Of a DNA stretch of 51,618 bases, positions 28,203-51,580 are shown piece after piece. The DNA is from Planctomycetota bacterium (GTDB lineage Bacteria; Planctomycetota; Phycisphaerae; Sedimentisphaerales; Anaerohalosphaeraceae), in contig VGXU01000012.1 of NCBI GenBank assembly GCA_016873215.1, positions 1 through 51,618 on the forward strand. The letters are read 5' to 3'. A model generated the notes under the pieces. It did no database searches, had not been told where the DNA came from, and saw nothing but the letters and a program-made list of their open reading frames with translations. Position 1 is the stretch's first letter, and each line of letters begins with the position of its first letter. The translations under genes were made by a program, and so were the position numbers.

Positions 28203-28230
28203 TTGAATCCAGGCAAAAATGTGATATACT
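28203..28230 (+). promoter_or_regulatory. Promoter for the hemA operon, predicted leaderless
   Basis: TTGAAT (28203-28208) and TATACT (28225-28230) are 16 bases apart. The expected start, 7 bases on, is at about 28237, two bases before ATG 28239. There is no Shine-Dalgarno sequence. Confidence 0.6.
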
Positions 28231-28238
28231 GGCCGCTT

Positions 28239-30433: not shown

Positions 30434-30436
30434 AAA

Positions 30437-33447: not shown

Positions 33448-36400
33448 ATGAAGCGAAAAATGGTAATGATTGACGGCAACCAGGCCGCGGCGCATGTCGC
33501 GCATGCCACCAACGAAGTCATCGCAATTTATCCTATTACCCCCAGTTCGCCGATGGGCGAAATTTCGGACGCTAAAACCGCGGCCAATCAGCCCAACATC
33601 TGGGGCACGATTCCTTCTGTGACGGAAATGCAGTCCGAAGGCGGCGCCGCCGGCGCGGTGCACGGCGCGCTGTCCAGCGGGGCGCTGACCACCACTTTCA
33701 CCGCCTCACAGGGTTTGTTGCTGATGATTCCAAATATGTACAAAATCGCCGGTGAATTGCAGCCGACGGTCTTTCACGTCTCAGCCCGGTCGCTGGCCTG
33801 TCAGGCCCTCAGCATCTTCGGCGACCATTCCGATGTGATGGCCTGCCGCCAGACCGGCTACGCGATGCTGGCTTCGACGAATGTGCAGGAAGTAATGGAT
33901 TTCGCATTGATTGCCCAGCAGGCCACGCTGGCTTCCCGTGTGCCGTTTCTGCATTTCTTTGACGGCTTCCGTACCAGTCACGAAGTGCAGAAAGTGGAGG
34001 AACTAACCTATGATGATATGCGGGCGATCATTGACGATAAATATGTCGCCTCACACAAAGCTCGCGCGTTGTCGCCCGACCGTCCGATGATGAGCGGCAC
34101 CGCACAAAATCCGGACGTCTATTTCCAGGGCCGCGAGACAGTCAACAAGTTTTATCTGGCCGTGCCGAAAATTGTCGAAGAGACGATGAACAAATTCGCC
34201 CAGGTTGCTGGGCGCCAATACAAGCTGTTCGATTATTTCGGTGCTCCCGATGCCGAAAAGGTTATCGTGATTATGTGCTCCGGCGCAGAAACCATCCGCG
34301 AAACCGTGGATTATCTTGTCGGTCAGGGTCAAAAGGTCGGTGTCATCGTCGTCCGTCTCTTTCGGCCGTTCAGCAATGAGCATCTGGCAATGGCACTGCC
34401 GAAAACCGTCAAGAAAATCGCCGTTCTCGACCGTACCAAAGAACCCGGCTCCATCGGCGAACCGCTGTATGTGGATATTCGCACTGCCCTCGGCGAACTG
34501 ATGAGCGAAGGCAAAATCAAACTGGATAAGTACCCCGTGGTCGTCGGTGGACGCTATGGTCTGGGCAGTAAGGAATTCACGCCGCCTATGGTCAAGGCCG
34601 TCTTTGATAATCTTGACCAGGCTAAGCCGAAAAATCATTTCACCGTCGGCATCAACGACGATGTCTGCGGCACCAGCCTCAAAGTGGACGAATCCTTCGA
34701 TACCGGCCAGAAAGCCTATTCGGCGATGTTCTTCGGTCTCGGTTCCGACGGCACCGTCGGCGCCAACAAAAACAGCATCAAAATCATCGGCGACGCAACC
34801 AATAACTACTGCCAGGGCTATTTTGTCTATGACTCCAAGAAAGCCGGTTCTATCACCGTGTCTCACCTGCGATTTGGCGGAGACCCCATTCGCAGTCCCT
34901 ATCTGGTGGACAAGGCCGATTTCGTCGCCTGCCACAATCCGAGCTTTCTTGAAAAATACGATATGCTGTCCAATGTCAAAACCGGCGGCACATTTCTCCT
35001 GACCAGTATTCATGGCCCCGACGAAGTCTGGGATACGCTGCCGGCCGAAGTGCAGAAACAGATGATCAACAAAAAACTGAAATTCTATGTCATTGATGCA
35101 ATCCGTATCGCAGAGGAACTGGGCCTCGGCGCCCGCATCAACGTGATTATGCAGACGGCGTTCTTCAAAATCAGCGGTGTTATCGACCCCCAAATCGCTG
35201 TCGATGCCATCAAGAACGCCATCAAGAAAACATACGGCAAAAAAGGCGACAATGTCGTGAAGATGAACAATGATGCTGTCGATGCCGCGCTCAATAAAAT
35301 CAGCGAGGTCAAAGTGCCGGGCAAAGTCACCAGCAAAACACATATCGCTTCGGCGATTCCGGATGATGCTCCGCAGTTTGTCAAAGAGGTCACCGCCGAA
35401 ATTCTGGCCGGTCGCGGCGACAAAATACCCGTCAGCAAAATGCCCGTGGATGGCAAATTCCCCACCGCGACAACCAAATATGAAAAACGTAATATCGCGG
35501 TGCATATTCCCGTATGGGAACCGTCGCTGTGTATCCAGTGCGGACGTTGTTCGCTGGTTTGCCCCCACGCTGCCATTCGCATCAAAGACTACGATCCCAA
35601 ATACGCCGAAAAAGCTCCGAAGACATTTAAATGTGCCGAGGCCAAGGGCAAAGAGTTTGCCGGGATGAAATTCACCGTTCAGGTTGCCCCGGAAGACTGC
35701 ACCGGCTGCGAAGCCTGCGTATTGAATTGCCCCGTCGAAGAAAAAGACGCCAACAAGCAGCCCACCGGACGCAAGGCCATCAATATGGCTCTTCAGGAGC
35801 CGTTGCGGATGCAGGAACGCGAAAACTTCAATTACTTCCTGTCGATTCCGGATACCGACCCGGCCAAGTTCAAACTTAACTCCGTCAAAGGCAGCCAGCT
35901 TGTCCCCGCGCTGTTTGAATTTTCCGGCGCCTGTGCAGGCTGCGGCGAAACCGCAAATGTAAAACTGCTCAGCCAGTTGTTCGGCGACAGGGCGATGATC
36001 GCCAACGCCACAGGCTGCTCGTCCATTTACGGCGGCAACCTGCCGACAACACCGTATGCCAAACGCTTTGATGGACGCGGCCCGACCTGGTCCAACAGTC
36101 TGTTTGAGGATAACGCCGAGTACGGTATGGGCATGCGGCTGGCGGTCAATAAATTCAAAGCCTTTGCCCTTGAATTGGTGGACAAGGTTGCCGCCGCCGG
36201 TTGCGTCGATAAGGCTCTCGCCGAAGAAATCAAAGCGGCAATGCTGGCGCAGACCGAGCAGGCCGGCATTGAGGCCCAGCGGGCACGTGTTGCAAAACTC
36301 AAAACCGCATGCCAAAAGAGCGACTGCAAAGATTGCAAACAGCTTTTAACTGTGGCCGATTATCTCGTCGAAAAGAGCGTCTGGATTCTCGGTGGCGACG

Positions 36401-37014
36401 GCTGGGCATACGACATCGGCTACGGCGGTCTGGACCACGTATTAGCCAGCGGTGAAAACATCAATGTGCTGGTGCTGGATACCGAAGTTTATTCCAATAC
36501 CGGAGGCCAGATGTCCAAGTCCACCCCGCGCGGCGCCGTCGCTCAATTTGCCGCCGGCGGTAAACGAATGCCCAAGAAAGATATGGGGATGATTGCAATG
36601 ACCTACGGCGGAATTTATGTCGCCTCCATTGCCATCGGCGCCGACCCCAACCAGGCGGTCAAGGCCTTTGTCGAGGCCGAAAGTTATAAAGGCCCGTCGC
36701 TGATTTTGTCGTACTGCCATTGTATCGCCCACGGAATTGATATGTCCGCCGGCTATAATGAGCAGAAAAGGGCGGTCGCCAGCGGACACTGGCCGTTATA
36801 TCGGTTCGACCCCCGCCTGGCCGCCGAAGGCAAAAATCCGCTGCAATTGGATTCCAAAGACCCGACGATGGATTTCGCCGAATATGCCTATGGCGAAAAC
36901 CGCTATCGAACACTCAAACAGTCCCAACCGGATGTCGCAGCACCCCTGATGGAAAATGCCCGACAGGACGCATTAAGGCGGTTATCAACACTGAAAAAGC
37001 TGGCGCAGATGTAA
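33448..37014 (+). CDS. nifJ: Pyruvate:ferredoxin (flavodoxin) oxidoreductase, single chain
   Basis: A 1188-residue PFOR that oxidises pyruvate to acetyl-CoA and CO2 with a ferredoxin as acceptor, a mark of anaerobic metabolism. All parts are in one chain: the pyrimidine-binding domain (AIYPITPSSPMGEISD), the gamma domain (about 415-600: GLGSDGTVGANKNSIKIIG), two 4Fe-4S sites (CIQCGRCSLVCP near 694 and CTGCEACVLNCP near 751), then the thiamin domain with CAGCGETANVKLLSQLFGD, GGDGWAYDIGYGGLDHVL and TEVYSNTGGQMSKSTPRGA. A fourth Cys pair in KSDCKDCKQLL is typical. GGAG lies before ATG 33448. It has its own terminator and is probably monocistronic. Confidence 0.98.
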   Translation: MKRKMVMIDGNQAAAHVAHATNEVIAIYPITPSSPMGEISDAKTAANQPNIWGTIPSVTEMQSEGGAAGAVHGALSSGALTTTFTASQGLLLMIPNMYKIAGELQPTVFHVSARSLACQALSIFGDHSDVMACRQTGYAMLASTNVQEVMDFALIAQQATLASRVPFLHFFDGFRTSHEVQKVEELTYDDMRAIIDDKYVASHKARALSPDRPMMSGTAQNPDVYFQGRETVNKFYLAVPKIVEETMNKFAQVAGRQYKLFDYFGAPDAEKVIVIMCSGAETIRETVDYLVGQGQKVGVIVVRLFRPFSNEHLAMALPKTVKKIAVLDRTKEPGSIGEPLYVDIRTALGELMSEGKIKLDKYPVVVGGRYGLGSKEFTPPMVKAVFDNLDQAKPKNHFTVGINDDVCGTSLKVDESFDTGQKAYSAMFFGLGSDGTVGANKNSIKIIGDATNNYCQGYFVYDSKKAGSITVSHLRFGGDPIRSPYLVDKADFVACHNPSFLEKYDMLSNVKTGGTFLLTSIHGPDEVWDTLPAEVQKQMINKKLKFYVIDAIRIAEELGLGARINVIMQTAFFKISGVIDPQIAVDAIKNAIKKTYGKKGDNVVKMNNDAVDAALNKISEVKVPGKVTSKTHIASAIPDDAPQFVKEVTAEILAGRGDKIPVSKMPVDGKFPTATTKYEKRNIAVHIPVWEPSLCIQCGRCSLVCPHAAIRIKDYDPKYAEKAPKTFKCAEAKGKEFAGMKFTVQVAPEDCTGCEACVLNCPVEEKDANKQPTGRKAINMALQEPLRMQERENFNYFLSIPDTDPAKFKLNSVKGSQLVPALFEFSGACAGCGETANVKLLSQLFGDRAMIANATGCSSIYGGNLPTTPYAKRFDGRGPTWSNSLFEDNAEYGMGMRLAVNKFKAFALELVDKVAAAGCVDKALAEEIKAAMLAQTEQAGIEAQRARVAKLKTACQKSDCKDCKQLLTVADYLVEKSVWILGGDGWAYDIGYGGLDHVLASGENINVLVLDTEVYSNTGGQMSKSTPRGAVAQFAAGGKRMPKKDMGMIAMTYGGIYVASIAIGADPNQAVKAFVEAESYKGPSLILSYCHCIAHGIDMSAGYNEQKRAVASGHWPLYRFDPRLAAEGKNPLQLDSKDPTMDFAEYAYGENRYRTLKQSQPDVAAPLMENARQDALRRLSTLKKLAQM

Positions 37015-37119: not shown

Positions 37120-37800
37120 ATGATTCAGTTTTACAAATATGTTATACTGGGGGGCGTTCTTTGCGGGTCTTTGGCCTGCGCTCCGTCAAAAACGAATCGG
37201 GAACTATCGGAAGTCTCCTGTTGCGGGCCGCAAATCAACGGCGTTTGTCTGGCATATTACTCCGACCATGCCGGCTCGACGTATATCACCCGCCAGATGC
37301 ATGAATTCTGTCCATGCAGCCGAAGCTTGCAAATTCAGGCTCAGGAACCCGGGGGGCAATGGCTCTGGCAACTGCGTGATGACGCCTTTTCAACAGTCAG
37401 TCCGAATAAAAGCTCGCCCCAAAACCACCTTTACGACAGGACTCTGTTGCTGGCTGTGTTTTATAGTATGGCCTCCGTGACAGAATTGCTTCCTCTTGCT
37501 GCCAATCCGTCGGAGGAACCCATTAAACTGGAAGGGCAGTGGTATATTCCTTTTATTCACCGTACGGCAAGTGGCGCAACAGTGACTTTACTCCAGTCAA
37601 GAGACACAAAGAAGTGTGACCTCGTAAAAATTCAAGACAATAAAACTACATTATTGGCTCGAAGTTATAATTTCCAATTTAATGAAACGCTGAAAAAGAA
37701 CATTCCACGGACAATAGATGTATTTAATATCACCGATGGTTTGTCGGCCAAAAAAATCGTTCTTCAGCTACAATATGTCCAGATAGAACCCCGAAATTAA
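37120..37800 (+). CDS. Cys-rich exported protein, unknown function
   Basis: A 226-residue protein that I do not recognise. The N-terminus IQFYKYVILGGVLCGSLACAPS is a signal peptide; the Cys in SLAC could be lipid-modified, but the -3 position is not ideal. The first part of the mature protein is Cys-rich (VSCCGPQINGVC, then EFCPCSRSL), suggesting disulfides or metal binding. The rest is a mixed alpha-beta domain. The start is taken at ATG 37120 because the signal peptide begins there; an ATG at 37078 adds 14 residues next to the nifJ terminator. The ribosome site is weak. It may not belong to the polysaccharide operon, as 300 bases separate them. Confidence 0.65.
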   Translation: MIQFYKYVILGGVLCGSLACAPSKTNRELSEVSCCGPQINGVCLAYYSDHAGSTYITRQMHEFCPCSRSLQIQAQEPGGQWLWQLRDDAFSTVSPNKSSPQNHLYDRTLLLAVFYSMASVTELLPLAANPSEEPIKLEGQWYIPFIHRTASGATVTLLQSRDTKKCDLVKIQDNKTTLLARSYNFQFNETLKKNIPRTIDVFNITDGLSAKKIVLQLQYVQIEPRN

Positions 37801-38103
37801 GCGTAAATGAGATTTTCTAATTTGTTTTTGGACATTTTATCGCTCTTTTTGTTGAAAAACCTTGTTAAAAGCCGAAAAACAGGATAAAAGGTGGAAAATA
37901 TAATTTTAGTAATAAGCGGGCTTTAGGCTCAAATTACAATTAAGGGATAGAACCCGCAAACCGATAAAAAAAGATAGGTATTCAAAAGACGGATCGGTTG
38001 AATATAGTCTTTGTTCGTCGCAACAGGCAGACATGCGAAAAAGATATCAGGAGCAAGGCGATGCGTCTTTTTATAAACAATAATGCAAGGATATAGAAAA
38101 GTG
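37801..38103. other. Leader region of the polysaccharide operon
   Basis: An AT-rich stretch of about 300 bases with no gene. It has a TATAAT at 37899-37904 without a good -35 box, a separated GCGGG/CCCGC inverted repeat (about 37916-37956), and a 7-bp palindrome TATTCAA (37979-37985) and TTGAATA (37998-38004). I found no sigma-54-type site and no riboswitch that I can name. An ATG at 38083 starts 7 codons ahead of the chosen gene start. Confidence 0.45.
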
Positions 38104-39768
38104 ATGGCTAAAAAAACTTTCTTTACAATGGTCTTGGGATGCGGGCTTGTATTTTTACCCGGCTGTTGGAACGATATTACTGATCCGACACAAATCGGAC
38201 GTTTTGAGCCGACGCCGACGGTGAGTGTTATTCTTGAATCTCTTGGAGTCGCCGATGAACCGAGCCCTACTTACGAAGGAGCAGAAGACCCCCGTCCGGC
38301 GGATTTGGTGGATATCGATACGGATTATGTTTTCGGTTCCGGCGATGTGGTTCGAATCAGCATCTTCGAGTTGTATCAGGCCGGCCAGATATTTGCCAAT
38401 GATTATGTTGTTACAGAAACGGGGCGTATTTCAATTCCTGATGTAGGCCAGGTTCAGGCCGCAGGGCTTACGGAAAGTCAGCTTGAGCAGCAGATTCGGG
38501 ACATTGTGTCGCCTTCGATTCTGAAAAATCCAGCAGTCACGGTGAGTCTGTTTTCCTCTCAGTCTCGTTATTTTTCTATAGTCGGCCAGGGAATCGGACA
38601 GGCTTCACGTTTTCCGATTCCGCGATACACATTTCGGTTGACTGACGCCATCGCTTTGGCCCAGGGGGTTGCAGAATTCAACGTCAGCCATATTTATGTT
38701 TCTCGCGACGTTCCGGAAATGCAGGCTGTCGCCGAGTCGGCTCAGCAAGCCGCTGAAACAAAAACCTCTCCCGATATCCAGTCGCCGCCAATCGAACTGC
38801 GTCCGGTCTCACCCACACCTCCCAGTCCCGAAGATGAAATGATGGAAATTATTGCGCCGACGGTAGCCAAAAAGCAAAGCGGGATTCTGATTACTTCCGC
38901 AGAGATGGCCGGACGTCAGGAATTAGAAAATTTGGCTGCGCCGGAAGGTGTGACGCCAGAACCGCCCTCACTGACAAAACCAGTCACAGACCAAAATCCG
39001 CTGCCGCCGACTCAGCCGCAGTCTGAACAGGTTCAGTGGGTTTTTGAAGACGGCAAGTGGAAGCCGGTACGCGCCGGGGACGCCGAAACGCGGGTTCTGC
39101 AGGAACCCACAGTACCGGTATCTCAACAACAGGGACTTTTGCCAAATCAGCCGGCGCAGCAATACCAGCCGGCACAACGATATCAGCCGGCACAACAACC
39201 AGAAGCCGCCCCGCGTGGATTTGGTTTGGAATCTCTCGGAACGCGCGGCAAGGTGACTCGTGTAATTCAAATCCCGCGGGACAGATTACTGGCTGGCGAC
39301 CCCAAGTATAACATCGTTATTCGTCCTGGCGACCGGATTACTGTGCCGGTGGATATTGTAGGTGAATTCTGGATTCTGGGCAACCTCAACCAGCAGGGGG
39401 CGATTACGCTTACAGGAAGACCAATTACGTTAAAAATGGCGATCGCGTCAGCGGGAGGTTTAGGACCGTTGGCTATACCGCAAAAAGTGGAAGTCGTCCG
39501 CAGAATCGGCAAAAACAAAGCCGGCCTGGTACAGGAGGAAACCGTCATGGTGGACCTGAACAAAATCGCCAAAGGATTACAGCCGGACTTTTTCATCAAA
39601 CCATACGATTTAATCAACGTCGGGACGACCGGCACCAGTCGATGGCTGTTGGGACTGCGGCAGGCCTTTCGTGCTACCTACGGATTTGGGTTTATCTATG
39701 ACAGGAACTTTAATGGGCAGAGTTTTGGTGATGACCCGTTGCCCAGGAATTTTGGTGATATTTTTTAA
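38104..39768 (+). CDS. Wza-like polysaccharide export lipoprotein with a long Pro/Gln linker
   Basis: A 554-residue outer-membrane export protein. The signal ends at VFLPGC, a probable lipid site. About 85-165 is the Poly_export domain (YVFGSGDVVRISIFE...GRISIPDVGQVQAAGLTESQLEQQI). An SLBB domain follows (RYFSIVGQGIGQASRFPIPR...TDAIALAQGVAEF). Then comes a linker of about 180 residues rich in Pro, Gln and Glu, with repeated QPAQ units near 39160-39200. A second beta-grasp SLBB domain closes it (EFWILGNLNQQGAITLTGRPITLKMAIASAGG). AAGGA lies about 13 bases before ATG 38104 and 10 before a GTG at 38101; ATG 38083 has none. It heads an operon with exosortase genes, so it exports an exopolysaccharide. 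Confidence 0.88.
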   Translation: MAKKTFFTMVLGCGLVFLPGCWNDITDPTQIGRFEPTPTVSVILESLGVADEPSPTYEGAEDPRPADLVDIDTDYVFGSGDVVRISIFELYQAGQIFANDYVVTETGRISIPDVGQVQAAGLTESQLEQQIRDIVSPSILKNPAVTVSLFSSQSRYFSIVGQGIGQASRFPIPRYTFRLTDAIALAQGVAEFNVSHIYVSRDVPEMQAVAESAQQAAETKTSPDIQSPPIELRPVSPTPPSPEDEMMEIIAPTVAKKQSGILITSAEMAGRQELENLAAPEGVTPEPPSLTKPVTDQNPLPPTQPQSEQVQWVFEDGKWKPVRAGDAETRVLQEPTVPVSQQQGLLPNQPAQQYQPAQRYQPAQQPEAAPRGFGLESLGTRGKVTRVIQIPRDRLLAGDPKYNIVIRPGDRITVPVDIVGEFWILGNLNQQGAITLTGRPITLKMAIASAGGLGPLAIPQKVEVVRRIGKNKAGLVQEETVMVDLNKIAKGLQPDFFIKPYDLINVGTTGTSRWLLGLRQAFRATYGFGFIYDRNFNGQSFGDDPLPRNFGDIF

Positions 39769-39779
39769 TTCCGAAATCT

Positions 39780-40763
39780 ATGAACCCGACGCTTTCCACG
39801 CAAACTCAGTCGCTTTCCGCCGACATACCCCGCGAATTCCGCTGGGCTGATGTGTCGTCAATGGTATGGATGCAGATTGCCATTGTGGCGGCATTGTTTG
39901 TCTGGTTTTTTGGGTATGATTTATGGGGCATGGTCCACCGCTGGTCCACCGATGCAAGCTGGTCTCATGGCTTTTTAATCCCTTTGTTCAGTCTGTATTT
40001 TCTGAATCAGAAAAAAGAGCAGATTCTTAGTCAGCAAATCCGTCCCAACTGGACTGTCGGGCTTTCTTTGCTTGTCCTGTGTTTGGTATTGTACCCGCTC
40101 AATATCGTTCAGTTTAAGTTCGGTTATGGTCGTCCTATTTTGATGATAGCGACGCTGATAGCGATGATATTTTTTCTGGGTGGATGGAATTTACTGCGAT
40201 ATACATGGTTGCCGGCGGGGTTTTTGTTTTTTTCCATTCCTTTGCCGGAACGGTTATATGCTCAAATTACCATCCCGCTTCGAATGTTGGCCGCAGAAGC
40301 TTCCGCGGTAATTTTGAATGTCATTCCTGAGTTAAAGGCCACGGTCAGCGGGGTTGTCATTGATGTCGTCTATAAAGGAAGTCCTCTTGTTCCGGGACTG
40401 GACGTTGCTGAAGCGTGCAGCGGAATGCGGCTGCTGATGGCGTTTGTGGCGCTGGGGGTGGCGATGGCTTATCTGCACGACAGGCCGATCTGGCAAAGAC
40501 TGATACTGCTGGCCAGCACCCTGCCTATCGCGATTTTATGCAATGTTGTCCGTGTTACCGTCACGGGGCTGATTTATGTTCTCTGGGATCCGAGGTACGC
40601 CCAGGGTATTTATCACGACCTGCTGGGGCTTCTGATGCTGCCTTTGGCCTTTGGACTTTATGGGTTTCTGGCTTGGCTGATGGGGAATCTTTATGTGGAA
40701 GAAGAGGCTGTCGTACCGCAGGTTATTATTCGCAGAAATTTATCGCAGGAGGGAAAAAAATGA
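39780..40763 (+). CDS. Exosortase (EpsH/Xrt family)
   Basis: A 327-residue polytopic membrane transpeptidase with about eight hydrophobic segments. The catalytic Cys213 (AEACSGMRLLMAFVALG), Arg258 (CNVVRVTVTG) and His279 (YHDLLGLLMLPLAF) are in the fixed order of exosortases. Such enzymes cut C-terminal sorting tags (PEP-CTERM or similar) of exported proteins. No PEP-CTERM protein is in the window. The gene starts 11 bases after the export gene and its stop overlaps the epsI start as ATGA. The Xrt subtype cannot be assigned by eye. Confidence 0.93.
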   Translation: MNPTLSTQTQSLSADIPREFRWADVSSMVWMQIAIVAALFVWFFGYDLWGMVHRWSTDASWSHGFLIPLFSLYFLNQKKEQILSQQIRPNWTVGLSLLVLCLVLYPLNIVQFKFGYGRPILMIATLIAMIFFLGGWNLLRYTWLPAGFLFFSIPLPERLYAQITIPLRMLAAEASAVILNVIPELKATVSGVVIDVVYKGSPLVPGLDVAEACSGMRLLMAFVALGVAMAYLHDRPIWQRLILLASTLPIAILCNVVRVTVTGLIYVLWDPRYAQGIYHDLLGLLMLPLAFGLYGFLAWLMGNLYVEEEAVVPQVIIRRNLSQEGKK

Positions 40764-41539
40764 AAAAGCTTCATGCTTTTCAGCCTGCGTTTGTTGTTTG
40801 TGCGATTTTGCTGGCGGTTTCTGCGGGCACCAAGTCAGTGGTGATTCAAGCCCTCGGTGTCCAGTTAACCAAGCTGCCGATTCCATTAAAAAAGCCGCTG
40901 GACCAAATGGACGACAAAAAACTGGTTTCGTATGAAGTTCGCGAAAAACAGACTATTGCAAATCGAGATATTTTGGAAAGTCTCGGCACGGAACAATATT
41001 TGCAATGGACGCTCGAAGACAAGGACGCTGCCGCCGAAAGCCCGACACGGTACTGTTCTTTATTTATTACCTATTATACAGGGAACCCGGATATGGTTCC
41101 GCACGTGCCGGACGAATGTTATGTCGGAGGGGGAAATACACGACTCAAAGGCGAAACGTTGACGGTGGAAGTGCCGTGGCCCGGCCGCGAAAAACCAGTC
41201 TCTGTCGCGATGCAGCAGGTATGGTTTGGTCGAAAGACACAAAGCATATTGGATACAGAAAACCAGTTCTCCGTCCAGTATTTTTTTAAGGCCAACGATA
41301 AATTCTGCGGCAGTCGCACGGAAACAAGGGCGGTGCTGGGAAAAAACTTCTACAGCAAATATTCCTACTTCGCAAAAGTAGAATGGAAATTTTTTGGAAC
41401 AGGCTATGCGGGTTTGATTTATCCGACCCGGGAACAAACCCTCGAGGCCAGCCGGAAACTGCTCTCAGCCGTGCTGCCCATACTGGAAGAAGATCACTGG
41501 CCTGACTGGAAAACCGCAAATCAGAAGACTGGAAACTAA
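40760..41539 (+). CDS. EpsI-type exosortase-associated protein
   Basis: A 259-residue protein with an N-terminal membrane anchor (FQPAFVVCAILLAVSAGTKSVV) and a mostly beta-stranded part outside the membrane. HVPDECYVGGGN resembles the conserved Cys motif of EpsI-family proteins, which sit beside or are fused to exosortases. ATG 40760 overlaps the exosortase stop, with GGAGGG upstream, so translation is coupled. Its function in the sorting pathway is unknown; the Cys may be catalytic. Confidence 0.85.
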   Translation: MKKLHAFQPAFVVCAILLAVSAGTKSVVIQALGVQLTKLPIPLKKPLDQMDDKKLVSYEVREKQTIANRDILESLGTEQYLQWTLEDKDAAAESPTRYCSLFITYYTGNPDMVPHVPDECYVGGGNTRLKGETLTVEVPWPGREKPVSVAMQQVWFGRKTQSILDTENQFSVQYFFKANDKFCGSRTETRAVLGKNFYSKYSYFAKVEWKFFGTGYAGLIYPTREQTLEASRKLLSAVLPILEEDHWPDWKTANQKTGN

Positions 41540-41565
41540 GACATTTTTAACAGGAATCAGGTAGT

Positions 41566-44500
41566 ATGGCGAAAAAATTAAACAGGAAATTGGTATATGT
41601 CGTTATCGCTGTCGGAGGATTTTTTTTCATCATTGTGGCAATTTTCGGGTTTAACTGGCTGAAAAGAAAAAATCCGCACTATTGTCTGGAGAAGGCCCAT
41701 CAGGCGGTCGCCAGCAGCGATTTCGTGACTGCAGAGCAATATTATCTCAGAGCTTATGGGCGAACTGAACTGGACAAAGACAAGATCGATATCTTGTTTG
41801 AGATGGCGCAATTTCATTTAACCGTCGGCCCCAAACATGAACCCAACTGGCGAAATGCGATTCAATGCTGGAATACGGTTCTGAATATTAACCCTCAGCA
41901 TATTGAAGCCCGCCGAAAACTTCTGGATTATTTCTACCAGGCCGCGGACAGCGGAAATAGCGGGCTTTGGAAACAAGTGGACGAGCATGCCACAAAACTT
42001 CTGGAGGTTTTTGAACAGACCAAAGAACAGCCGGTTCGTGAGGTATTGATGGCCGCCGCGAGGGCTTCTTATGAAATCGCTCTCCAGGGCAGCGAAACGT
42101 ATCGTCAGGAACGAGCCGAACGGGCGGCAAAATTACTTGAACAACTGAAAAAACTCGCTCCGGATGACGTGGAAGTTTATGAATATATGGCACAGGTTGC
42201 GTTGCTGAAGGGGGAACTGGATGAGGCAAAGGGAGTAAAAGACGCCCGAAGTACTGCTCAGAAAAACGCTCAGACAATTCTGCAGCAGGCGATTCAAAAT
42301 GTGGCGGATAAAGGGAAAGCCAGTGCTTATCTGGCGCAGTTTGAATTGCGTCAGGTGCAGGCGGACCCCAATACGTTGCCGCTATTTCGCAAAAAAGTGG
42401 AAGATTTAACTCAGACGTATCCGAAATCGGACCAGTTATTTTCTGTTTTGTCGGCCAGCTATGAATTGCACGGGACAATCGACCGCAGAAAGGAACTGGA
42501 ACTGGCTGTACAAAACGCAGAAAAGGCGCAGGAAGCAGCCGGAGGTCAAAATGTGATGTATGCGATCCGCACGGCGTCACTGCTGTACCGGATAGGATCG
42601 CTTTACGAAGAAAAAGAACCCACGGAACGCGCCATAAAAATCGCAGAAACCGCTTTAACGTTTCCCGATGCGACTATTCTGCGGGGACCGAAAGAATCGG
42701 CCGCAAGACAAAACCGTTTCATGCTTCAATCTTTCCTGGCCCGTTGTTTTGTAGACCAGGCTGTTATGGCAAGAAAGGCTAACGATGAAAAGACCGCCAA
42801 GTTATTTTATGATCTGGTGAATAAGGCGGTGGAAGAAATTACTCAGCTTGTCGGCGGAAGTACCACGTTGATTGCCCGGCAGTGGCAGGGGATGCTGGCT
42901 TTGGCGGAGAACAATGAAAAACAGGCCTTCCGGCTTTTGTACAAAGTCTATGAGGAAATGAAAGCTCTCGATAAGACGGGTGAGATGTCCTCAATCGACG
43001 CATATTTATGCTATACACTTTCACGTCTGGCTGCGACTCAGGGGTCATTGGGAATGCAGAGGGAATTTCTTGAAAAGGCATTATACAACCGTAACAGTAT
43101 CGCGCCGGAAAAACCCTCGGCGATTCTTGACTACGTGAACATCATGCTGAATCTTCAGGCCGGAAGCCGTGTGGTGGAAATCTTGGATTCTTATATTCGA
43201 GTATATGGTGAAAGTACGCGGGTTCGGTTGATGCGGATACAGGCGAATCTTCAGGCCGCACAGTTTGAAGAGGCGGGAAATCAGCTCAGCAAGATGGATT
43301 CGAGCAATCCTGAGGTGGCCCAGACTCGACTCTTGTTGGCAAATCTGCAATTGAATCGTTTGTTGGGCAGACAAGCTCTCGAAAAAAGGGACTTTTCCGC
43401 GGAGGAACAGAAGAAAATTTCGCAACTTCGTGTTGAACAGGATCAACTGCTTAACGAATTAATGCAGAAAAAGCCGGACATGGTCGATTCCCAGATTCTC
43501 GTTTCAGTCTGTCGTGAACGAATTGTCGAAGGTAAATTGGAAGAAGCGCGAAAATTAATTTCCCCCTTTGCGGCCTCGCAGAAGGAAAACGTGAACGTCC
43601 AATTATTGAAACTGCAATTGGATGAGCCGGATCCGAATGCTATTTCTCCGGCGCGACAGCAGGAACTTACGGAAACGGTTCTGCGGCAGATTAAAGACCC
43701 TGTTCGACAGGCATTGTTGCTGGGGCAGCATTACCGTGCTCTCGGCAAAGTCGAGCAAGCCAAAGAGCTCTACGAAAAGGCGTACCAGCAATCTTCGGAT
43801 AGCGTCGAGATCGCCAGCGACTATTTTAGTTTTCTGCTGGAACAGAAAAAGATTCTGCTCGCGGAAGAAATATTTGCCAAAATCCGCAATCAAAATCCGG
43901 ATGGTCATGAAGGCAATCTGTTTTTGGCGCAACTGGAAATTGCCAGGGAAAATTATCCCGCGGCTCTACGACGTCTGGATGAATGTATATCGCTCCGGCC
44001 CGGTTCGTCAGCGGCAATGATGCTGAAAAGTCAGGTCTATCTTCTCCAGAAGAATTATGGTTCAGCGGTGGAAAATGCCCGGTTGGCATTTCAAGTTGAC
44101 CCGCAGAATGGCATGGCGGCTCGTATGTTGGCCCTTACGATCTATGAACGAAACCGTAATCTGAGCGCCGCCGCCACCCCCGAACAAACAACCGAACTGG
44201 AGAAAGCTATCGGTATCGCTATGTTTCTTAATCCCGCCGATTGGCGATTGCAGGGCGTGTACGCCGAGGCGATCGAAGAAAAGGATCCGCAACGGGCTCT
44301 TGCAATGCGGCAGGCATTACTCAAGGGATTGCCCAACACAAGCAATGCTTTGATGCTGGGTAATATGGCGATACGTATGGCGCGGACGGAAAAGGACTCT
44401 GCTAAACAAAACGCGTTTATAGAGATCGCGGGCAATGCTTATCAGCAGGCGTACCAGATGGAACCTTCCAACAGAGAAGTACAGAACGCTTATATCGAAT

Positions 44501-46287
44501 ACCTGCGAGCCACCCGACAGCGGCAAAAAGCGACGGAGTTATTTGCCAAAGACGAAAGTGCCCTGTGGCGTTTTTATCTCAGCGATGGACAATATACTCA
44601 GGCTGCTGAGATTATCGAGAAACTTCTTGCCAAAAACGAGAATGATATCGAACTTTCCCAGGCATTAGTGGAAGCTTATAAGGGATTAGAGCAGTGGGAA
44701 AAGATGAAAGCTCCTCTGGGGCTGTTGGGTCGGCAGAAACTTACCGCGGATCAGGAAATATGGCTGATTCAAAAATATTTAGACACCGGCGACAATGAAG
44801 AGGCGGAAAAACGGTTGGCCAGTTTTCAAGAGCGCTATCCCGTCGATGACCGCGGACAAATGCTTGCGGCGTGGTTGAATATGTACCAGGGAAATATGGA
44901 GAAAGCCATTGAATTGGTACAGAAATATCTGGAGAAAGATACTCGTGCCCCGGCGGGGTGGAGATTGAAAGGTCGTATCCATCGACTCATGGATCAGCCG
45001 CAACAGGCCATTGATGCACTGCAGCGAAGCAAATCGGTTTTCTCCGACCCGATGGTTCGGATAGAACTGTCGACGATTTATAACCAAATGGGTCAGATAG
45101 AAGCCGCTATTGGAGAACTGGTCGGTGGTCTGAATGAACCACAGGTCCCGCCGCAAATGTTGCAGATGCTGGAATCATTGTATGTTCATCACCAACGAGT
45201 TAATGAACTGGCTCAATTCTATCAGCAGATGATTGGAAAATATCCAAACTCACTGTTTTGGTACACCAAAGCCGGTTTATTTCTCTTCGGACAGAAAAAT
45301 TATTCTGATGCCCTGACCCTGCTGGAAAAGGCATGGAATCTGAGCCGGCAGGGAGGATCTCCTGGCGACCACACGGCTCTGAATAATTACTTAAAGACTT
45401 TAATCGAAGCGCAACAAATGGAAAAAGCTTTGGCTGTGGCCGCGGGACTTATCGACACGCCGCTGGCTCCCGTGGCATATTGTAATATAGCCACAGTCCA
45501 GGCCAAACAGGGGCAGAACGACAAGGCTATCGAATCTTTTTCCAAGGCGATTGATAAAGCATCCGGAAAGTCATCCATGATATTGGGAACGCTTACGATG
45601 ATGGGGCGTGTTCTGGGTACGGAATTCGTGGAAAAATGGTGTAATCAGAAACTGGCGACGGACTCTAAATACATGCCGGCGCATATTATGCTGGCGGATA
45701 TCGAAGAACAGAGAGGCGCTTACAACAAAGCGATGGCGCATGTTGTCCAGTGTCTTGAGCAGGTGCCGGAAAATAGTCCGGACTGGATGGAATTTTCCAA
45801 TCGGAAAGCAATGCTTTTATTGGCGGCTTATTCCAAAACCGCCGATACGGGTTATTTTGAACAAGCGGTCCAGCAGTTGGAGGCCAATCTTAAAATGCAG
45901 CCGAATAACGCAACGATGATGAATAATCTGGCGTACCTGTTTGCGGATAATAACGTTCAAATTAACAAGGCTGTCGACTATTCACGTCGGGCTTTTCAGG
46001 TATCCCCGGCTGATCCTGTCTTTCTCGACACCCATGCTTACGCGCTCTGCAGAACAGGAGAGTTTGCACAGGCCGAACGATATTTGCGTCGGGCGATTCA
46101 GTTGTGTGAACGAGGCAATACTCCGGCAACGTGGGATATCTATAAACATCTGGGAATGGCTTTACAGGGGCAGAAGAAGAATAAGGAAGCCCGTACCGCT
46201 TTTGAGAAGGCTCTCGAACTGGGTAAAGAACTTCCTGAAAAAGAAAAAATTGCCTTGGAACAAATGATACGGGATTTAAAGCCATAA
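41566..46287 (+). CDS. Very large membrane-anchored TPR protein of the polysaccharide/exosortase operon
   Basis: A 1573-residue protein. One membrane helix lies near the start (KLVYVVIAVGGFFFIIVAIFGFNWL), with the rest probably in the periplasm. Nearly all of the remaining length is TPR and TPR-like helical hairpins, for instance AEQYYLRAYGRTELDKDKIDILFEMAQFHL, KAIESFSKAIDKASGK, PNNATMMNNLAYLFADNNVQINKAVDYSRRAFQVSPADPVFLDTHAYALCRTG near the C-terminus. Long TPR proteins (PrsT-like) recur in PEP-CTERM/exosortase loci; this one is longer than most. Its helices could form a scaffold linking inner and outer membrane parts of the export machine. It begins 26 bases after epsI and ends 25 before the tyrosine kinase. 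Confidence 0.85.
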   Translation: MAKKLNRKLVYVVIAVGGFFFIIVAIFGFNWLKRKNPHYCLEKAHQAVASSDFVTAEQYYLRAYGRTELDKDKIDILFEMAQFHLTVGPKHEPNWRNAIQCWNTVLNINPQHIEARRKLLDYFYQAADSGNSGLWKQVDEHATKLLEVFEQTKEQPVREVLMAAARASYEIALQGSETYRQERAERAAKLLEQLKKLAPDDVEVYEYMAQVALLKGELDEAKGVKDARSTAQKNAQTILQQAIQNVADKGKASAYLAQFELRQVQADPNTLPLFRKKVEDLTQTYPKSDQLFSVLSASYELHGTIDRRKELELAVQNAEKAQEAAGGQNVMYAIRTASLLYRIGSLYEEKEPTERAIKIAETALTFPDATILRGPKESAARQNRFMLQSFLARCFVDQAVMARKANDEKTAKLFYDLVNKAVEEITQLVGGSTTLIARQWQGMLALAENNEKQAFRLLYKVYEEMKALDKTGEMSSIDAYLCYTLSRLAATQGSLGMQREFLEKALYNRNSIAPEKPSAILDYVNIMLNLQAGSRVVEILDSYIRVYGESTRVRLMRIQANLQAAQFEEAGNQLSKMDSSNPEVAQTRLLLANLQLNRLLGRQALEKRDFSAEEQKKISQLRVEQDQLLNELMQKKPDMVDSQILVSVCRERIVEGKLEEARKLISPFAASQKENVNVQLLKLQLDEPDPNAISPARQQELTETVLRQIKDPVRQALLLGQHYRALGKVEQAKELYEKAYQQSSDSVEIASDYFSFLLEQKKILLAEEIFAKIRNQNPDGHEGNLFLAQLEIARENYPAALRRLDECISLRPGSSAAMMLKSQVYLLQKNYGSAVENARLAFQVDPQNGMAARMLALTIYERNRNLSAAATPEQTTELEKAIGIAMFLNPADWRLQGVYAEAIEEKDPQRALAMRQALLKGLPNTSNALMLGNMAIRMARTEKDSAKQNAFIEIAGNAYQQAYQMEPSNREVQNAYIEYLRATRQRQKATELFAKDESALWRFYLSDGQYTQAAEIIEKLLAKNENDIELSQALVEAYKGLEQWEKMKAPLGLLGRQKLTADQEIWLIQKYLDTGDNEEAEKRLASFQERYPVDDRGQMLAAWLNMYQGNMEKAIELVQKYLEKDTRAPAGWRLKGRIHRLMDQPQQAIDALQRSKSVFSDPMVRIELSTIYNQMGQIEAAIGELVGGLNEPQVPPQMLQMLESLYVHHQRVNELAQFYQQMIGKYPNSLFWYTKAGLFLFGQKNYSDALTLLEKAWNLSRQGGSPGDHTALNNYLKTLIEAQQMEKALAVAAGLIDTPLAPVAYCNIATVQAKQGQNDKAIESFSKAIDKASGKSSMILGTLTMMGRVLGTEFVEKWCNQKLATDSKYMPAHIMLADIEEQRGAYNKAMAHVVQCLEQVPENSPDWMEFSNRKAMLLLAAYSKTADTGYFEQAVQQLEANLKMQPNNATMMNNLAYLFADNNVQINKAVDYSRRAFQVSPADPVFLDTHAYALCRTGEFAQAERYLRRAIQLCERGNTPATWDIYKHLGMALQGQKKNKEARTAFEKALELGKELPEKEKIALEQMIRDLKP

Positions 46288-46312
46288 TCTTAATCAGATC
46301 AGGAGCAGATGT

Positions 46313-48601
46313 ATGAATCAAAATATACAACGTGCAGTTGGATCCTTAGTAAATCCTCCGTCCAGCCGGCCGGCTTTGGCAACTCAGCAGGCTGGAGTTC
46401 CAGACATGATGACCCCCAGGGAAATCGCGGGGATTCTTCGCCGGCATGTATGGATGATTCTGCTGTGCACGGTTATCGGCGCGATAGGAGGAACAGGAGG
46501 ATTTTTCCTGTTGCAGCGGTATTATCCCCGGTACACAGCGAGAGCGGCGATAGAGGTTCTGCCGTTGGAAAAAGGAGACCCTTGGGCTTTTAATATCGGT
46601 CAGCCTCAGAAAGACACCTATTACCAAATCCGTTTTTCTAAGGCGGCGATGCTTAAACAGCAGGCTTCACTGCAGGAGTTGATCCGCCAGGATGAAATTC
46701 GTCAGACAGACTGGTTCAAACAATTTGCCAAAACCGATGCTCAGGGAAATATCATCGGCGATTTGGACAAGGCCACTAAAGATGCAATTGACGACCTTAT
46801 CAAAAACCTTGGCGCCACAGCTCCGCGGGATTATACGTTTATCGAAATCTCGATGACTTGCGGCAGTGCAGCAGAGTCGGCTAAAATCACGAATAAAATG
46901 GTCGAACTTTTTACGACAAGTCAACTCGAACAAGCCCGAGGATTCCTTCGGACTCAACTGGCTGAACAGACGCGTCAGCGAAATGAGATTAACACAAGAC
47001 TGGGTCAAATTGAAACAACGCAGGCCAATATACGGGGGGCAACTCGTTATGCCCGTCTGAATTTGACGCAAAATACAAATTTTCGCGATTATATGGATGA
47101 TAAAATCGCCGACATTGAAAGAAGTTTCAGTAACCTTGAGAGCGATAGAGCGAACCTCGAAATACAAATTGAAACATTGAAAAAACGCGCTTCCAGCGAG
47201 CAGTTTGACGAAGTCATTAACGAACAAGTGGAGCAGGATGCGATTGCCCGCCAGCTTCGCGCCAACATCGCCGCCACCGAACCGGTTTTGGCGGAACGGT
47301 TGACCCGCTTTGGTGAGGACCATCGGTCGGTCCGTGAAATTCGGGATTCACTCAAACAAATGCGGGAAGAATTCGAGAAACGTCAGGCGTATATCGGCGA
47401 TGTTGTTCGTAAATCCAGATACCAGCAAGCCCAGGACGAAATGGCTGCTATGGCCCAGCAGTTAGAGACGGTAACCAAACAGTTACAGGCCGCTCGTGCA
47501 GAATACAAAGCAGTGGACCAGATTCGCTCGGAATACGATATATATGAAAAAAAGAGGGAAGAAGAACAGGCATTGTTAACGCAAATCACGGGGTATATCG
47601 AAAAATTAAACGCTCAATATCAGGACCCGCTGATCAGCAAGCTTCAGTCTTTAGGACCGGCGCCGATACCTTTAGAAATGAGTTTCCCTCGGCTCATATT
47701 ATTTCTGCCGGGCGGTACCATTTTAGGATTGCTGGCGGGTCTGGGGCTTGCTTTTGCAGTTGAGCTTTTAAACGACCTGTTGCGGACGCCCAGCGATATT
47801 AAGCGGCATTTGCGGGTGCCTATGCTCGGCGCCATTTGCCACGCAGATGACGACAGCGATATTGAAGGCGTTGATCTGTCGCATGTGGTTCGCCAGGCGC
47901 CCCATTCCATTATGAGTGAAGGCTATCGCCAGTTGCGAACCAATCTAAAATTGTCTGGGCCGGGCGGAGCGGAACACAAAACCCTGCTGGTGACCAGCCC
48001 CGCAGCCGGCGACGGCAAAACCTCGGTGGCGGTTAATCTGGCGGCAGCAATGCTCCATGAAAACAAGCGGGCCCTTCTCATCGACGCCAATTTCCGCAGG
48101 CCTTCTTCGGGACGTCTGTTCCCGCGCACCGAAGCCAATGGCTCCATATCGGAACATGCGGATTTCGGTTTAAGTAATTTTCTGATGGGACAGTGCGGCG
48201 ACGAAAAAGAAATTATTCGGCCCAGTGGTATCGAGGGCATGGATATTATTGACAGCGGTCCCTTGCCGGTCAATCCGGGAGAACTGTTCGACGACCTGCG
48301 AATGAAGCAGCTTCTGGATCGCTGCAAAGAAGCCTACGAATATGTTATCATTGACGGACCTGCTCTGCTGGTTAACGATGCCAAAATATTGGCCTCACAT
48401 GCCGACGGCACGCTGGTTGTCTTCAATGCCGCCGAGACGCATCGTGGAACCGCACAGCGAATTTTGCGGGAATTGCAGAGCGTCCACGCAAACACGGTCG
48501 GGACGGTACTGATGGGTGTCAAGAGTCGCAAAGGCGGCTATTTCCATGAGGTCTATCGCTCCTATCATGAATATCAGCGGGTTCCTGTGAATCAGGCGTA
48601 A
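46313..48601 (+). CDS. Wzz-type chain-length regulator fused to a bacterial tyrosine kinase (BY-kinase)
   Basis: A 762-residue inner-membrane protein. A Wzz domain lies between two membrane helices (about 44-65 and 462-485), with long coiled coils in the periplasm. The cytosolic kinase has Walker A SPAAGDGKTSVAVNLAAA (near 560-575), Walker A' RALLIDANFRRP and Walker B YVIIDGPALLVND. The C-terminus has a tyrosine cluster (GGYFHEVYRSYHEYQ, four Tyr), the usual site of autophosphorylation. Phosphorylation of this tail sets polymer length and export. AGGAG is nine bases before ATG 46313. Together with the Wza-like gene it forms the core of a Wzy-dependent export system; no wzx or wzy is in the window. 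Confidence 0.93.
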   Translation: MNQNIQRAVGSLVNPPSSRPALATQQAGVPDMMTPREIAGILRRHVWMILLCTVIGAIGGTGGFFLLQRYYPRYTARAAIEVLPLEKGDPWAFNIGQPQKDTYYQIRFSKAAMLKQQASLQELIRQDEIRQTDWFKQFAKTDAQGNIIGDLDKATKDAIDDLIKNLGATAPRDYTFIEISMTCGSAAESAKITNKMVELFTTSQLEQARGFLRTQLAEQTRQRNEINTRLGQIETTQANIRGATRYARLNLTQNTNFRDYMDDKIADIERSFSNLESDRANLEIQIETLKKRASSEQFDEVINEQVEQDAIARQLRANIAATEPVLAERLTRFGEDHRSVREIRDSLKQMREEFEKRQAYIGDVVRKSRYQQAQDEMAAMAQQLETVTKQLQAARAEYKAVDQIRSEYDIYEKKREEEQALLTQITGYIEKLNAQYQDPLISKLQSLGPAPIPLEMSFPRLILFLPGGTILGLLAGLGLAFAVELLNDLLRTPSDIKRHLRVPMLGAICHADDDSDIEGVDLSHVVRQAPHSIMSEGYRQLRTNLKLSGPGGAEHKTLLVTSPAAGDGKTSVAVNLAAAMLHENKRALLIDANFRRPSSGRLFPRTEANGSISEHADFGLSNFLMGQCGDEKEIIRPSGIEGMDIIDSGPLPVNPGELFDDLRMKQLLDRCKEAYEYVIIDGPALLVNDAKILASHADGTLVVFNAAETHRGTAQRILRELQSVHANTVGTVLMGVKSRKGGYFHEVYRSYHEYQRVPVNQA

Positions 48602-48638
48602 ACGACAACGGTTCTTTGAATAATAATGGAGAGGGATT

Positions 48639-49577
48639 ATGGAACGATTTCTCATCACCGGTGGAGCCGGGTTTATCGGTTCCAATCTGTGCCGGAAGCT
48701 CGTCAAGGAAGGCTGTTTTGTCCGTGTGATTGACAATCTCATTACGGGCAAACTCAGCAATCTCGCCGGCCTGATGGATAAGATTGATTTCGTGCAGGCG
48801 GATATGGGCGACCCGGCTGTCGCATGCACCGCGATGAAAAATATCGATGTGGTGCTGCATCAGGGAGCCGTACCCTCCGTTCCCCGCAGCGTCGACGACC
48901 CGCTGACAACCCATAAACACTGTGTCGATGCCACGTTCACATTATTAATGGCGGCGCGGGACGCCGGCGTCAAACGGTTTGTCTATGCCGCCAGTTCTTC
49001 CGCCTACGGCGATACACCGACACTGCCGAAGGTCGAAAATATGCTGACTAATCCGCTGTCGCCTTACGCCGTCGCAAAATTGGTAGGGGAGTATTACTGC
49101 AGCGTTTTCGCCAAAGTCTATGGACTCCAGACCATTTCGCTGCGTTATTTCAATGTGTTCGGCCCGTATCAGGACCCCGCCAGCCAATATGCCGCTGCCA
49201 TCCCGGCCTTCGTGACCAAAATCATTAAGAACGAACCCCCGACGGTGTACGGCGACGGCGAACAATCCCGCGATTTTACCTATATCGATAATGTGGTTCA
49301 CGCCAATCTGTCAGCCGCCCGCGCCGCCAAACTCAGCGGCGAAGTGGTCAATATCGCCTGCGGCCAGCGCATTACGGTCAATGAAATTATCCGGCTGATT
49401 AACAAAATCCTCGGCAAATCCGTCCAGCCGAAATACGAACCCTCGCGGCCGGGCGACGTCAAACACTCGCTGGCCTCGATTGAACTGGCCAAAAAGGTCA
49501 TCGGCTATAAGCCGGTTATCTCGTTCGGCGACGGCCTTGAACGGGCCATCGCGTGGTATCGCGAAAATCTCGTATAA
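48639..49577 (+). CDS. UDP-sugar 4-epimerase (WbpP-like SDR)
   Basis: A 312-residue NAD-dependent short-chain dehydrogenase/epimerase. The Rossmann motif GGAGFIGSNLCRKL, the active-site SPYAVAK, and the blocks AASSSAYGD, RYFNVFGPYQDP and YGDGEQSRDFTYIDNV resemble WbpP (UDP-GlcNAc 4-epimerase) more than GalE. It would supply an N-acetylated sugar nucleotide, such as UDP-GalNAc, for the polysaccharide. The substrate is inferred. GGAGAGG lies before ATG 48639, 37 bases after the tyrosine kinase gene. Confidence 0.9.
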   Translation: MERFLITGGAGFIGSNLCRKLVKEGCFVRVIDNLITGKLSNLAGLMDKIDFVQADMGDPAVACTAMKNIDVVLHQGAVPSVPRSVDDPLTTHKHCVDATFTLLMAARDAGVKRFVYAASSSAYGDTPTLPKVENMLTNPLSPYAVAKLVGEYYCSVFAKVYGLQTISLRYFNVFGPYQDPASQYAAAIPAFVTKIIKNEPPTVYGDGEQSRDFTYIDNVVHANLSAARAAKLSGEVVNIACGQRITVNEIIRLINKILGKSVQPKYEPSRPGDVKHSLASIELAKKVIGYKPVISFGDGLERAIAWYRENLV

Positions 49578-49588
49578 CATTCATGTAG

Positions 49589-49608
49589 CACAGCCGCCCT
49601 CGGCTGTG
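49589..49608. repeat. REP-like palindrome
   Basis: CACAGCCG (49589-49596) and CGGCTGTG (49601-49608) form a perfect 8-bp stem with loop CCCT. It lies between the epimerase and the diguanylate cyclase. Similar elements are known as dispersed repeats in planctomycete genomes; without a T run it is not a standard terminator. Confidence 0.7.
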
Positions 49609-49635
49609 GAATGCTTTCCGGTAAAAGAGGGAACA

Positions 49636-50670
49636 ATGCCATTATCCGGGTTAAATTCCGTTCGGCGTATTCTGGCGCTCCTGCCGGAATCAAACGTCCT
49701 TGCCAACTGGGCGTCGCAGGCCGGGGCACAGATACAATTCTGCCAAACTACCGCCGATCTGCTCTCGCTGGCCGCCGCCGGCGGCGATGACTTGATTTTC
49801 CTTCACCTGCGCCGGATTAGGGAACGCATCGACCATACCCTTCAGTCGCTTCGCCAGGCCAACCCGGCGGGCCGTATTATCCTGCTTTGCTCGATGGCCG
49901 AGGAACCGCTGGCCATCCGGCTGACACAAAGTGCCGCCGCCGGCAAATCGGCCGACGATTATTTTATTTATCCGGGCGGTTTTACCGAATGGATTCACGG
50001 CTGGGTGGCACAGCAAAAAAATACATTGTTCCCCACGCTGGCCGAACCGACCGAGGCCCTGCGGCATCTCGAAAAACTGGCCACCGAAGACGACCTGACC
50101 GGCCTGAAAAATCGCCGCTATATCCGCCAATTTCTTCGCCAAATCCTCGACTATGCCCATAAAGACCAGTTTCACGTCACCATCCTGCTGTTCGATATCG
50201 ACAATTTCAAGCAGTATAACGACCTCTACGGCCATACCATCGGCGACGAAGTCCTCCGGCAGGTCGGCGAAGTGATGAAACGCTGCTGCCGGGCACACGA
50301 CGTCGTCGCCCGCATCGGCGGCGATGAATACGCCGTGGTCTTTTGGGATTTGCCTTCGGCGGGCCTGGAAGCGTCGGCCTCCGCCGAACGCCGCAAGGCC
50401 GTCAGCGGACATCCGCGGGAGCCGCTGTTTATGGCCCAGCGATTTTGCCGGCAGTTGCGTCAGGCGAAGCCGCCTTCACTCGGCGACTCCGGCAAGGGAA
50501 GCCTGACCATCAGCGGCGGGCTGGCGTCGTTTCCCGACGACGGCGACAATGAAACCCGGCTGTGGGAACAGGCCGACCATGCCATGCTGCGGGCCAAGCA
50601 ATCCGGCAAGAACAAAATCCTCATCGTCGGCAAATCCGCCGACGCCCCCAATTCCCCGCCAATTTCTTAG
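49636..50670 (+). CDS. Diguanylate cyclase (GGDEF domain, GGDEY) with receiver-like N-terminus
   Basis: A 344-residue enzyme that makes cyclic di-GMP from two GTP. The N-terminal 125 residues look like a receiver fold without the usual phosphorylation pocket (RRILALLPESNVLANWASQ...DDLIFLHLRRI...RIILLCSMAEEPLAI). The GGDEF domain begins DDLTGLKNRRYIRQFL, has FDIDNFKQYNDLYGH, and the active motif GGDEY at 228-232. RAHD five residues before it is a product-inhibition site (RxxD). GGLASFPDDGDNE and AMLRAKQSGKNK close the domain. AGAGGG precedes ATG 49636. As last gene of the polysaccharide cluster it could tune export through c-di-GMP; a palindrome separates it from the epimerase, so it may also be transcribed alone. 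Confidence 0.93.
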   Translation: MPLSGLNSVRRILALLPESNVLANWASQAGAQIQFCQTTADLLSLAAAGGDDLIFLHLRRIRERIDHTLQSLRQANPAGRIILLCSMAEEPLAIRLTQSAAAGKSADDYFIYPGGFTEWIHGWVAQQKNTLFPTLAEPTEALRHLEKLATEDDLTGLKNRRYIRQFLRQILDYAHKDQFHVTILLFDIDNFKQYNDLYGHTIGDEVLRQVGEVMKRCCRAHDVVARIGGDEYAVVFWDLPSAGLEASASAERRKAVSGHPREPLFMAQRFCRQLRQAKPPSLGDSGKGSLTISGGLASFPDDGDNETRLWEQADHAMLRAKQSGKNKILIVGKSADAPNSPPIS

Positions 50671-51386
50671 CGTCCAGCGTACTGGAAAAGTTATCCACAA
50701 ATGGGTTCGTTTCGTTTTTTTGGGTTGTTTTTTGACCTCCATTTCTGCGATTTTGATATTGATAACGCCTATTTGGTCGTAAAAAAATTGGGTTCGTTTT
50801 TGGAACAGACGGAACCACAGATTTCGCAGATTGCACAGATTATTTTTTTGACAGGATTTACAGGATTTAGATTTTTTATTTTTCTGACGACATGGATTCC
50901 CGCCTTCCGTCTTCGCTTCGCTACGACGCGACAAGTTGGGTTCGTTTGGGTTAAAATTGGGTTTAGAGGCGTATTTTGTGATCATTTTTGCTCACTTTTT
51001 GGCTTTAAATTGGCTTTTTTGTTCATTTTTTTGGGTTTAATTGGCTTTTTTTAAAGCCAAGAGTCCAGAGACCAGAGAAATAAAAAGAAGTCAGAAGTCG
51101 GGAGTCAGGAGCCAGAATAAGGAGTCGGCGGAGCCGACAGCCAAAATGAACAGATTTCTCACCCGCAAGGGGTTCGAAATGACGGACCTCTTGCTTTGCC
51201 AACGTTTTTAACAACATAATGTCCATGCTCCTTTCCGGAGCGGAAAAACCGCCCTCTATGATTACCGGGGACTTGCATATCCGTGTCGAAAATTCGTGAT
51301 TTTTGCAGGACGGGAAAGCTGTAAGTCTTTATGTGGAATGGAGTTAAAAATTTATGGAGTTTCTAAGGATAGCAGGATAGTGCAAT

Positions 51387-51420
51387 CGCAATACGTTTTA
51401 TCTGGATAAAACGTATTGCG
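51387..51420. repeat. Perfect 15-bp inverted repeat
   Basis: CGCAATACGTTTTAT (51387-51401) and its exact reverse complement (51406-51420) are separated by CTGG. No T run follows, so it is not a typical terminator. Confidence 0.85.
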
Positions 51421-51580
51421 AATTGAGAATGCAGAATTTAGATTTGAGAAATCAAAGGTGTAAACCACGAAAGACACGGATTAACACGGATTGATCAGCG
51501 ACAATCAATCTTGCCTTCCCCGTTGCCTCAACTTAAAATGTTACTATAAGTGTTGCAGTTAATCATGTCAATTCTTGGGA

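Follow-up and report, generated by a model that had tools for sequence, protein, structure and literature searches.

The 51,618-nucleotide stretch analyzed here (the window) comprises positions 1-51,618 of contig VGXU01000012.1 of a Planctomycetota bacterium of the order Sedimentisphaerales (assembly GCA_016873215.1). Between positions 38104 and 50670, seven open and collinear genes lie on the forward strand, separated in order by 11, −4, 26, 25, 37 and 58 nt. A first-pass annotation had read them as a Wza-like exporter, an exosortase, EpsI, a giant tetratricopeptide repeat (TPR) protein, a Wzz/bacterial tyrosine kinase, a sugar epimerase and a diguanylate cyclase, and our family searches agree, with EpsI the weakest call. 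The first five genes form a compact block in which neighbors are −4 to +26 nt apart, and the epimerase (+37) and cyclase (+58) follow downstream. The start codon of the EpsI-like gene overlaps the stop codon of the exosortase gene (ATGA, 40760-40763); an open reading frame starting at 40415 is a mechanical extension only, and the EpsI-like gene begins at 40760. Promoter-like sites were only mildly above shuffled sequence and terminator-like sites no commoner than in it, and neither was used as evidence.

The exosortase (39780-40763) matches Exosortase_EpsH (PF09721; E 8e-56, 189.6 bits versus a cut-off of 25.7) and passes TIGR02602 (129 versus 105.6 bits). Its C213, R258 and H279 are invariant among 33 aligned sequences. 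Scores against the named Xrt subfamilies all lie under the NCBIfam cut-offs (XrtW, 147 versus 425 bits; XrtD, 145 versus 400; XrtA, 143 versus 208; XrtV, 108 versus 313; XrtB, 73 versus 275), and the protein appears to belong to an unnamed subfamily, in no named Xrt group. The source genome (2.69 Mb, 99.9% complete) encodes this one exosortase; a weak match on contig C24, raised by a genome-wide search for a second, is a Wzy_C protein. The same genome encodes 22 PEP-CTERM proteins scoring above the Pfam cut-off, none of them in the window. Most carry N-terminal signal peptides, their tails follow the canonical PEP-helix-basic pattern (e.g. VPEPATMGLLALGGLTLLRRRRR), and several of the genes stand in tandem clusters on contigs C2 and C6. 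No PEP-CTERM tag was found in any of 14 control genomes. Because a single exosortase occurs in a genome with 22 tags, enzyme and substrates would pair. The operon exosortase is predicted to cleave the PEP-CTERM tag.

The EpsI-like protein (40760-41539), which has one N-terminal membrane helix, matched nothing at E 1e-3 in the family search, DUF3485 being marginal (E 0.09; 12.9 bits versus a cut-off of 26.1). Among 36 orthologs, 17 match DUF3485 (best 3e-7) and 12 match EpsI_fam (TIGR02914; best 2e-4), and H115, P117 and C120 are invariant across the aligned sequences. A profile of the orthologs also detects homologs beyond the order, elsewhere in its class; in a sample of 392 planctomycete genomes it is nearly limited to that class, which holds 40 of the 46 matching genomes. 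At the homolog loci opened outside the order, the EpsI-like part is fused C-terminally to an exosortase in three cases and encoded directly 3′ of one in another. Given the ortholog matches to DUF3485 and EpsI_fam, and this fusion or adjacency, we classify the protein, on sequence grounds, as a remote EpsI that scores under every model cut-off.

An AlphaFold2 model of this protein, computed from 36 sequences, has a pLDDT of 91.6. Foldseek gave no clear PDB homolog, with nothing below E 0.08. On structural realignment, SciW, Mog1, EagT6, PA94, LpqN and PsbP, which we take to be Mog1/PsbP-like proteins, came out on top with Z scores of 5.5-7.3, SciW giving 7.3 (3.9 Å across 129 residues). Proteins of this fold (SciW/EagT6, Mog1, PsbP, LpqN) fill several of the top places with identities of just 4-11%, and as Z scores below 8 may reflect only a common arrangement, we treat the likeness as a lead and transfer no function from it. 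The titles of the SciW and EagT6 entries describe binding to effectors at N-terminal or transmembrane segments; by analogy, this suggests that the EpsI-like protein could hold the tail of PEP-CTERM proteins.

The remaining block members resemble components of glycan export and of the PEP-CTERM system. The Wza-like outer-membrane lipoprotein (38104-39768, with a possible start at 38083; PF02563, PF22461) matches Poly_export (E 3e-19) and SLBB_2, and its lipobox residues G27-C28 are invariant among orthologs. Its two SLBB halves are separated by an insert of about 190 aa (126-412 aa in orthologs) whose position is conserved, and the C-terminus is likewise conserved and of an unusual kind. The membrane-anchored TPR protein (41566-46287; 1573 aa) is PrsT-like (TIGR02917, E 4e-49), scoring 167 bits versus a cut-off of 312. 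The kinase (46313-48601; PF02706, TIGR01007) exceeds the eps_fam cut-off (126 versus 108 bits), carries a Wzz domain (E 1e-6), conserves the kinase residues and, in all 38 sequences compared, has 2-6 tyrosines within the last 35 residues; by score, Wzz domain and tyrosine cluster together, it is predicted to be a bacterial tyrosine kinase of the Wzc type. Downstream lies an accessory NAD-dependent sugar-nucleotide epimerase (48639-49577; PF01370, E 3e-59).

To assess conservation, we sampled 59 genomes of the order and fetched 40 exosortase loci from seven families. An exosortase of any type was matched in 58 of the 59, and an ortholog of the operon exosortase (at least 46% identity across the aligned part) in 57; of the two exceptions, G021 has another type only and G019, which is 73% complete, gave no match. 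PEP-CTERM tags occur in all 59. Homologs of the Wza-like, exosortase, EpsI-like and TPR proteins are encoded at all 40 loci in one common order, with the kinase last at each of the 37 where the contig is long enough. A scan of a genome collection added 80 named loci, mostly planctomycete by title and several titled Sedimentisphaerales, with identical order wherever contigs reach. The epimerase is variable, standing 3′ of the kinase at 17 of 40 loci.

Genes for glycan synthesis are dispersed. No PEP-CTERM, Wzx, Wzy or glycosyltransferase gene was found inside the operon, as the first-pass annotation had stated, and the tags, Wzy_C and glycosyltransferase matches are all on other contigs. A Wzx-type flippase lies beside two glycosyltransferases on contig C18, and the Wzy_C protein adjoins a WecA-type transferase on contig C24. 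The genome has 14 PF00534 matches, more than ten glycosyltransferases, and four proteins with PF00953, of which one is presumably MraY. The annotation had pictured the locus as an export and sorting core that could serve proteins and sugars encoded elsewhere, and had proposed looking for PEP-like C-terminal tags in the proteome, for the gene order in Phycisphaerae, and for wzx, wzy and glycosyltransferase genes at other loci. The picture holds for proteins and probably for sugars.

Relatives of the source genome possess a second exosortase, of 630-670 aa, in which a nucleotidyltransferase-like domain (PF00483) and a left-handed beta-helix are fused N-terminally; this architecture was seen at 13 of 13 loci inspected (L228 and L239-L250). 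Close reading of one sequence showed a degenerate GGxGTR catalytic motif in its PF00483 domain, and a search of the open-access literature found no paper on such an exosortase-nucleotidyltransferase fusion. Downstream come a Wzc-like kinase and then a PF02397 transferase of about 550 aa with a left-handed helix of its own; at 27 loci, from 26 genomes, a distance of 3.8-6.4 kb separates the second exosortase from the PF02397 gene. This operon explains part of the presence of PF02397 in the order, where 52 of 59 genomes have it. The source genome has neither the second exosortase nor a PF02397 transferase, so the core operon can exist without this glycan-making operon.

Taken as a whole, these data make it probable that the block is an order-wide surface-assembly operon of Sedimentisphaerales, in which exosortase sorting is coupled with Wza/Wzc glycan export. 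Secreted proteins bearing a C-terminal VPEP-helix-RRK tag would stop in the inner membrane, where the Cys-Arg-His site of the exosortase would cut off the tag and probably pass the protein on, with the EpsI-like and giant TPR proteins assisting it from the periplasm. A complex spanning the envelope, formed by the Wzc-type kinase and the Wza-like lipoprotein, would export a glycan whose synthesis falls to the Wzx, Wzy, WecA-type and glycosyltransferase genes found elsewhere in the genome, and the sorted proteins would reach the surface with that glycan. In some lineages the epimerase may contribute a sugar, and in a few the cyclase may modulate the system. In Nostoc punctiforme, deletion of the single exosortase altered the PEP-CTERM exoproteome as well as attachment to polysaccharide at the surface (PMC12188702), which supports a general role of this kind for exosortases.

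Several observations weigh against coupled sorting and glycan export. The only glycan gene linked to the operon is the epimerase, and no PF02397 initiating transferase was found in the source genome, so any glycan must begin from a WecA-type enzyme. Both the EpsI-like and the TPR proteins fall short of the cut-offs of the families to which they would belong, and the pairing of the 22 PEP-CTERM proteins with the operon exosortase is drawn from genome content only. One could accordingly suppose that the Wza/Wzc-like parts carry tagged proteins alone, with no polysaccharide and no need for sugar synthesis. The lack of any glycosyltransferase between the core genes in the loci compared fits this idea, as do the long Wza insert at a conserved position, the unusual conserved C-terminus, and the retention of the core in good genomes without PF02397 (the source genome, G003 and G029, the last two being the relatives at least 90% complete that share its absence). 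We nonetheless regard it as unlikely, since Wza and Wzc families are glycan exporters, WecA-type, Wzx and Wzy genes are present in the genome, and PF02397 is widespread in the order. A more specific form is somewhat less likely again: that the core is a protein-surface exporter without a dedicated polysaccharide, with Wza/Wzc as the conduit for processed PEP-CTERM proteins and the Mog1/PsbP-fold EpsI-like protein holding the tail in the periplasm. It draws on the persistence of the core in genomes that have neither the second exosortase operon nor any PF02397 transferase. The converse, that the operon serves glycan only and the exosortase acts on another class of substrate, could appeal to the lack of a linked PEP-CTERM gene in the source genome; we consider it very improbable, given that this is the sole exosortase in a nearly complete genome with 22 tags and that tags and enzyme are found together across the order.

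The last gene (49636-50670) encodes a predicted diguanylate cyclase, with a pseudo-receiver and an intact GGDEF domain (PF00990, E 9e-40) that carries the GGD/EEF motif as GGDEY and an intact RxxD I-site. Its model matches the fold of receiver-GGDEF cyclases (WspR, 3bre; PleD; DgcR) across the whole length, and the GGDEF domain and I-site are shared with them. Unlike those proteins, it has a conserved insertion (20-35 residues after GGDEF, at a conserved position), and in the aligned orthologs the receiver lacks the acidic pocket, the acceptor aspartate and the lysine, so phosphorylation of this pseudo-receiver is unlikely. The annotation had called the enzyme built in to the operon. Consistent with a dedicated regulator are its shared direction and 58-nt gap, the four PilZ-domain proteins in the source genome that could read cyclic di-GMP, and the recurrence of linkage in genera g1, g2, g13 and g14, in the last of which the cyclase follows wzc behind a coupled gene for a protein of about 166 aa. 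That protein has no Pfam family and, outside the window's genus, is often encoded directly before the cyclase, overlapping or abutting it (e.g. L226:5309-5809, L232:3217-3717 and L102:896-1366); it is not present before the window's cyclase. Most genomes of the order carry an ortholog of the cyclase (46 at E < 1e-70, plus one in G029 interrupted by the contig end), and these orthologs adjoin the operon in only about 9 of about 47 (G000, G001, G003, G015, G026, G027, G029, G031 and G034), with linkage likely in G002 and G022, where contig ends interrupt. Of the 40 long loci, 4 carry the gene beside the operon, as do 6 of the 80 named ones; in G008 (a single contig) it lies about 2.2 Mb away, and within one genus it is both linked (G003, G027) and unlinked (G018, G025). 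The rarity of linkage leads us to reject the cyclase as a core component, and because linked and unlinked genomes share a genus and most orthologs lie elsewhere, the term built-in is not supported; a dedicated regulator seems improbable, and a lineage-limited regulatory link is possible.

Past the cyclase, at 51386-51421, is a perfect 17-bp inverted repeat with a 2-nt loop (TCGCAATACGTTTTATC), the sole copy among the fetched loci. Upstream of the operon are a pyruvate:ferredoxin oxidoreductase gene (33448-37014) and a gene for a small lipoprotein-like protein (37120-37800, forward strand; lipobox LAC), an arrangement also found in many relatives. The latter protein has no Pfam match and no assigned family; roughly half of the loci in relatives have a homolog upstream of the operon, and it is probably not part of the core. 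Farther upstream, at 28203-31957, is a row of heme biosynthesis genes comprising hemA, hemC and a gene for a fused methylase-HemD protein.

The first-pass annotation had also suggested that the system is not fully described. That stands for this variant, as our search of the open-access literature found no paper describing the operon and none on exosortases in Sedimentisphaerales. It does not stand for the underlying system, whose parts and logic are known: the PEP-CTERM/EpsH/EpsI/PrsT system and its link to exopolysaccharide loci were described in 2006 by Haft et al. (PMC1569441). Shared with that system are the invariant Cys, Arg and His, the neighboring EpsI, the TPR protein, the polysaccharide-export genes and the many tagged proteins encoded elsewhere. 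The window operon differs in that its exosortase has no named subfamily, its EpsI-like and PrsT-like proteins score under the model cut-offs, its locus lacks glycosyltransferases, and it is conserved order-wide. With Wza/Wzc capsule and exopolysaccharide export it shares the Poly_export/SLBB outer-membrane lipoprotein and the Wzz-kinase protein with its C-terminal tyrosine cluster; it departs from such systems in the long SLBB-region insert, in placing exosortase, EpsI and giant TPR genes between wza and wzc, and in having no Wzx, Wzy or glycosyltransferase genes nearby.

What is new, then, is the compact order-wide arrangement, the unnamed exosortase subfamily, and an EpsI-like partner outside current models together with its confident predicted fold, which is now available for a family of unknown function. 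The 2006 table listed the planctomycete Rhodopirellula baltica with EpsH and without an EpsI or PrsT entry (PMC1569441); EpsI-like partners do exist in planctomycetes. Over seven families, the operon keeps exosortase, EpsI, giant TPR and Wza/Wzc together while glycan genes come and go, and it thereby names a minimal set for study.

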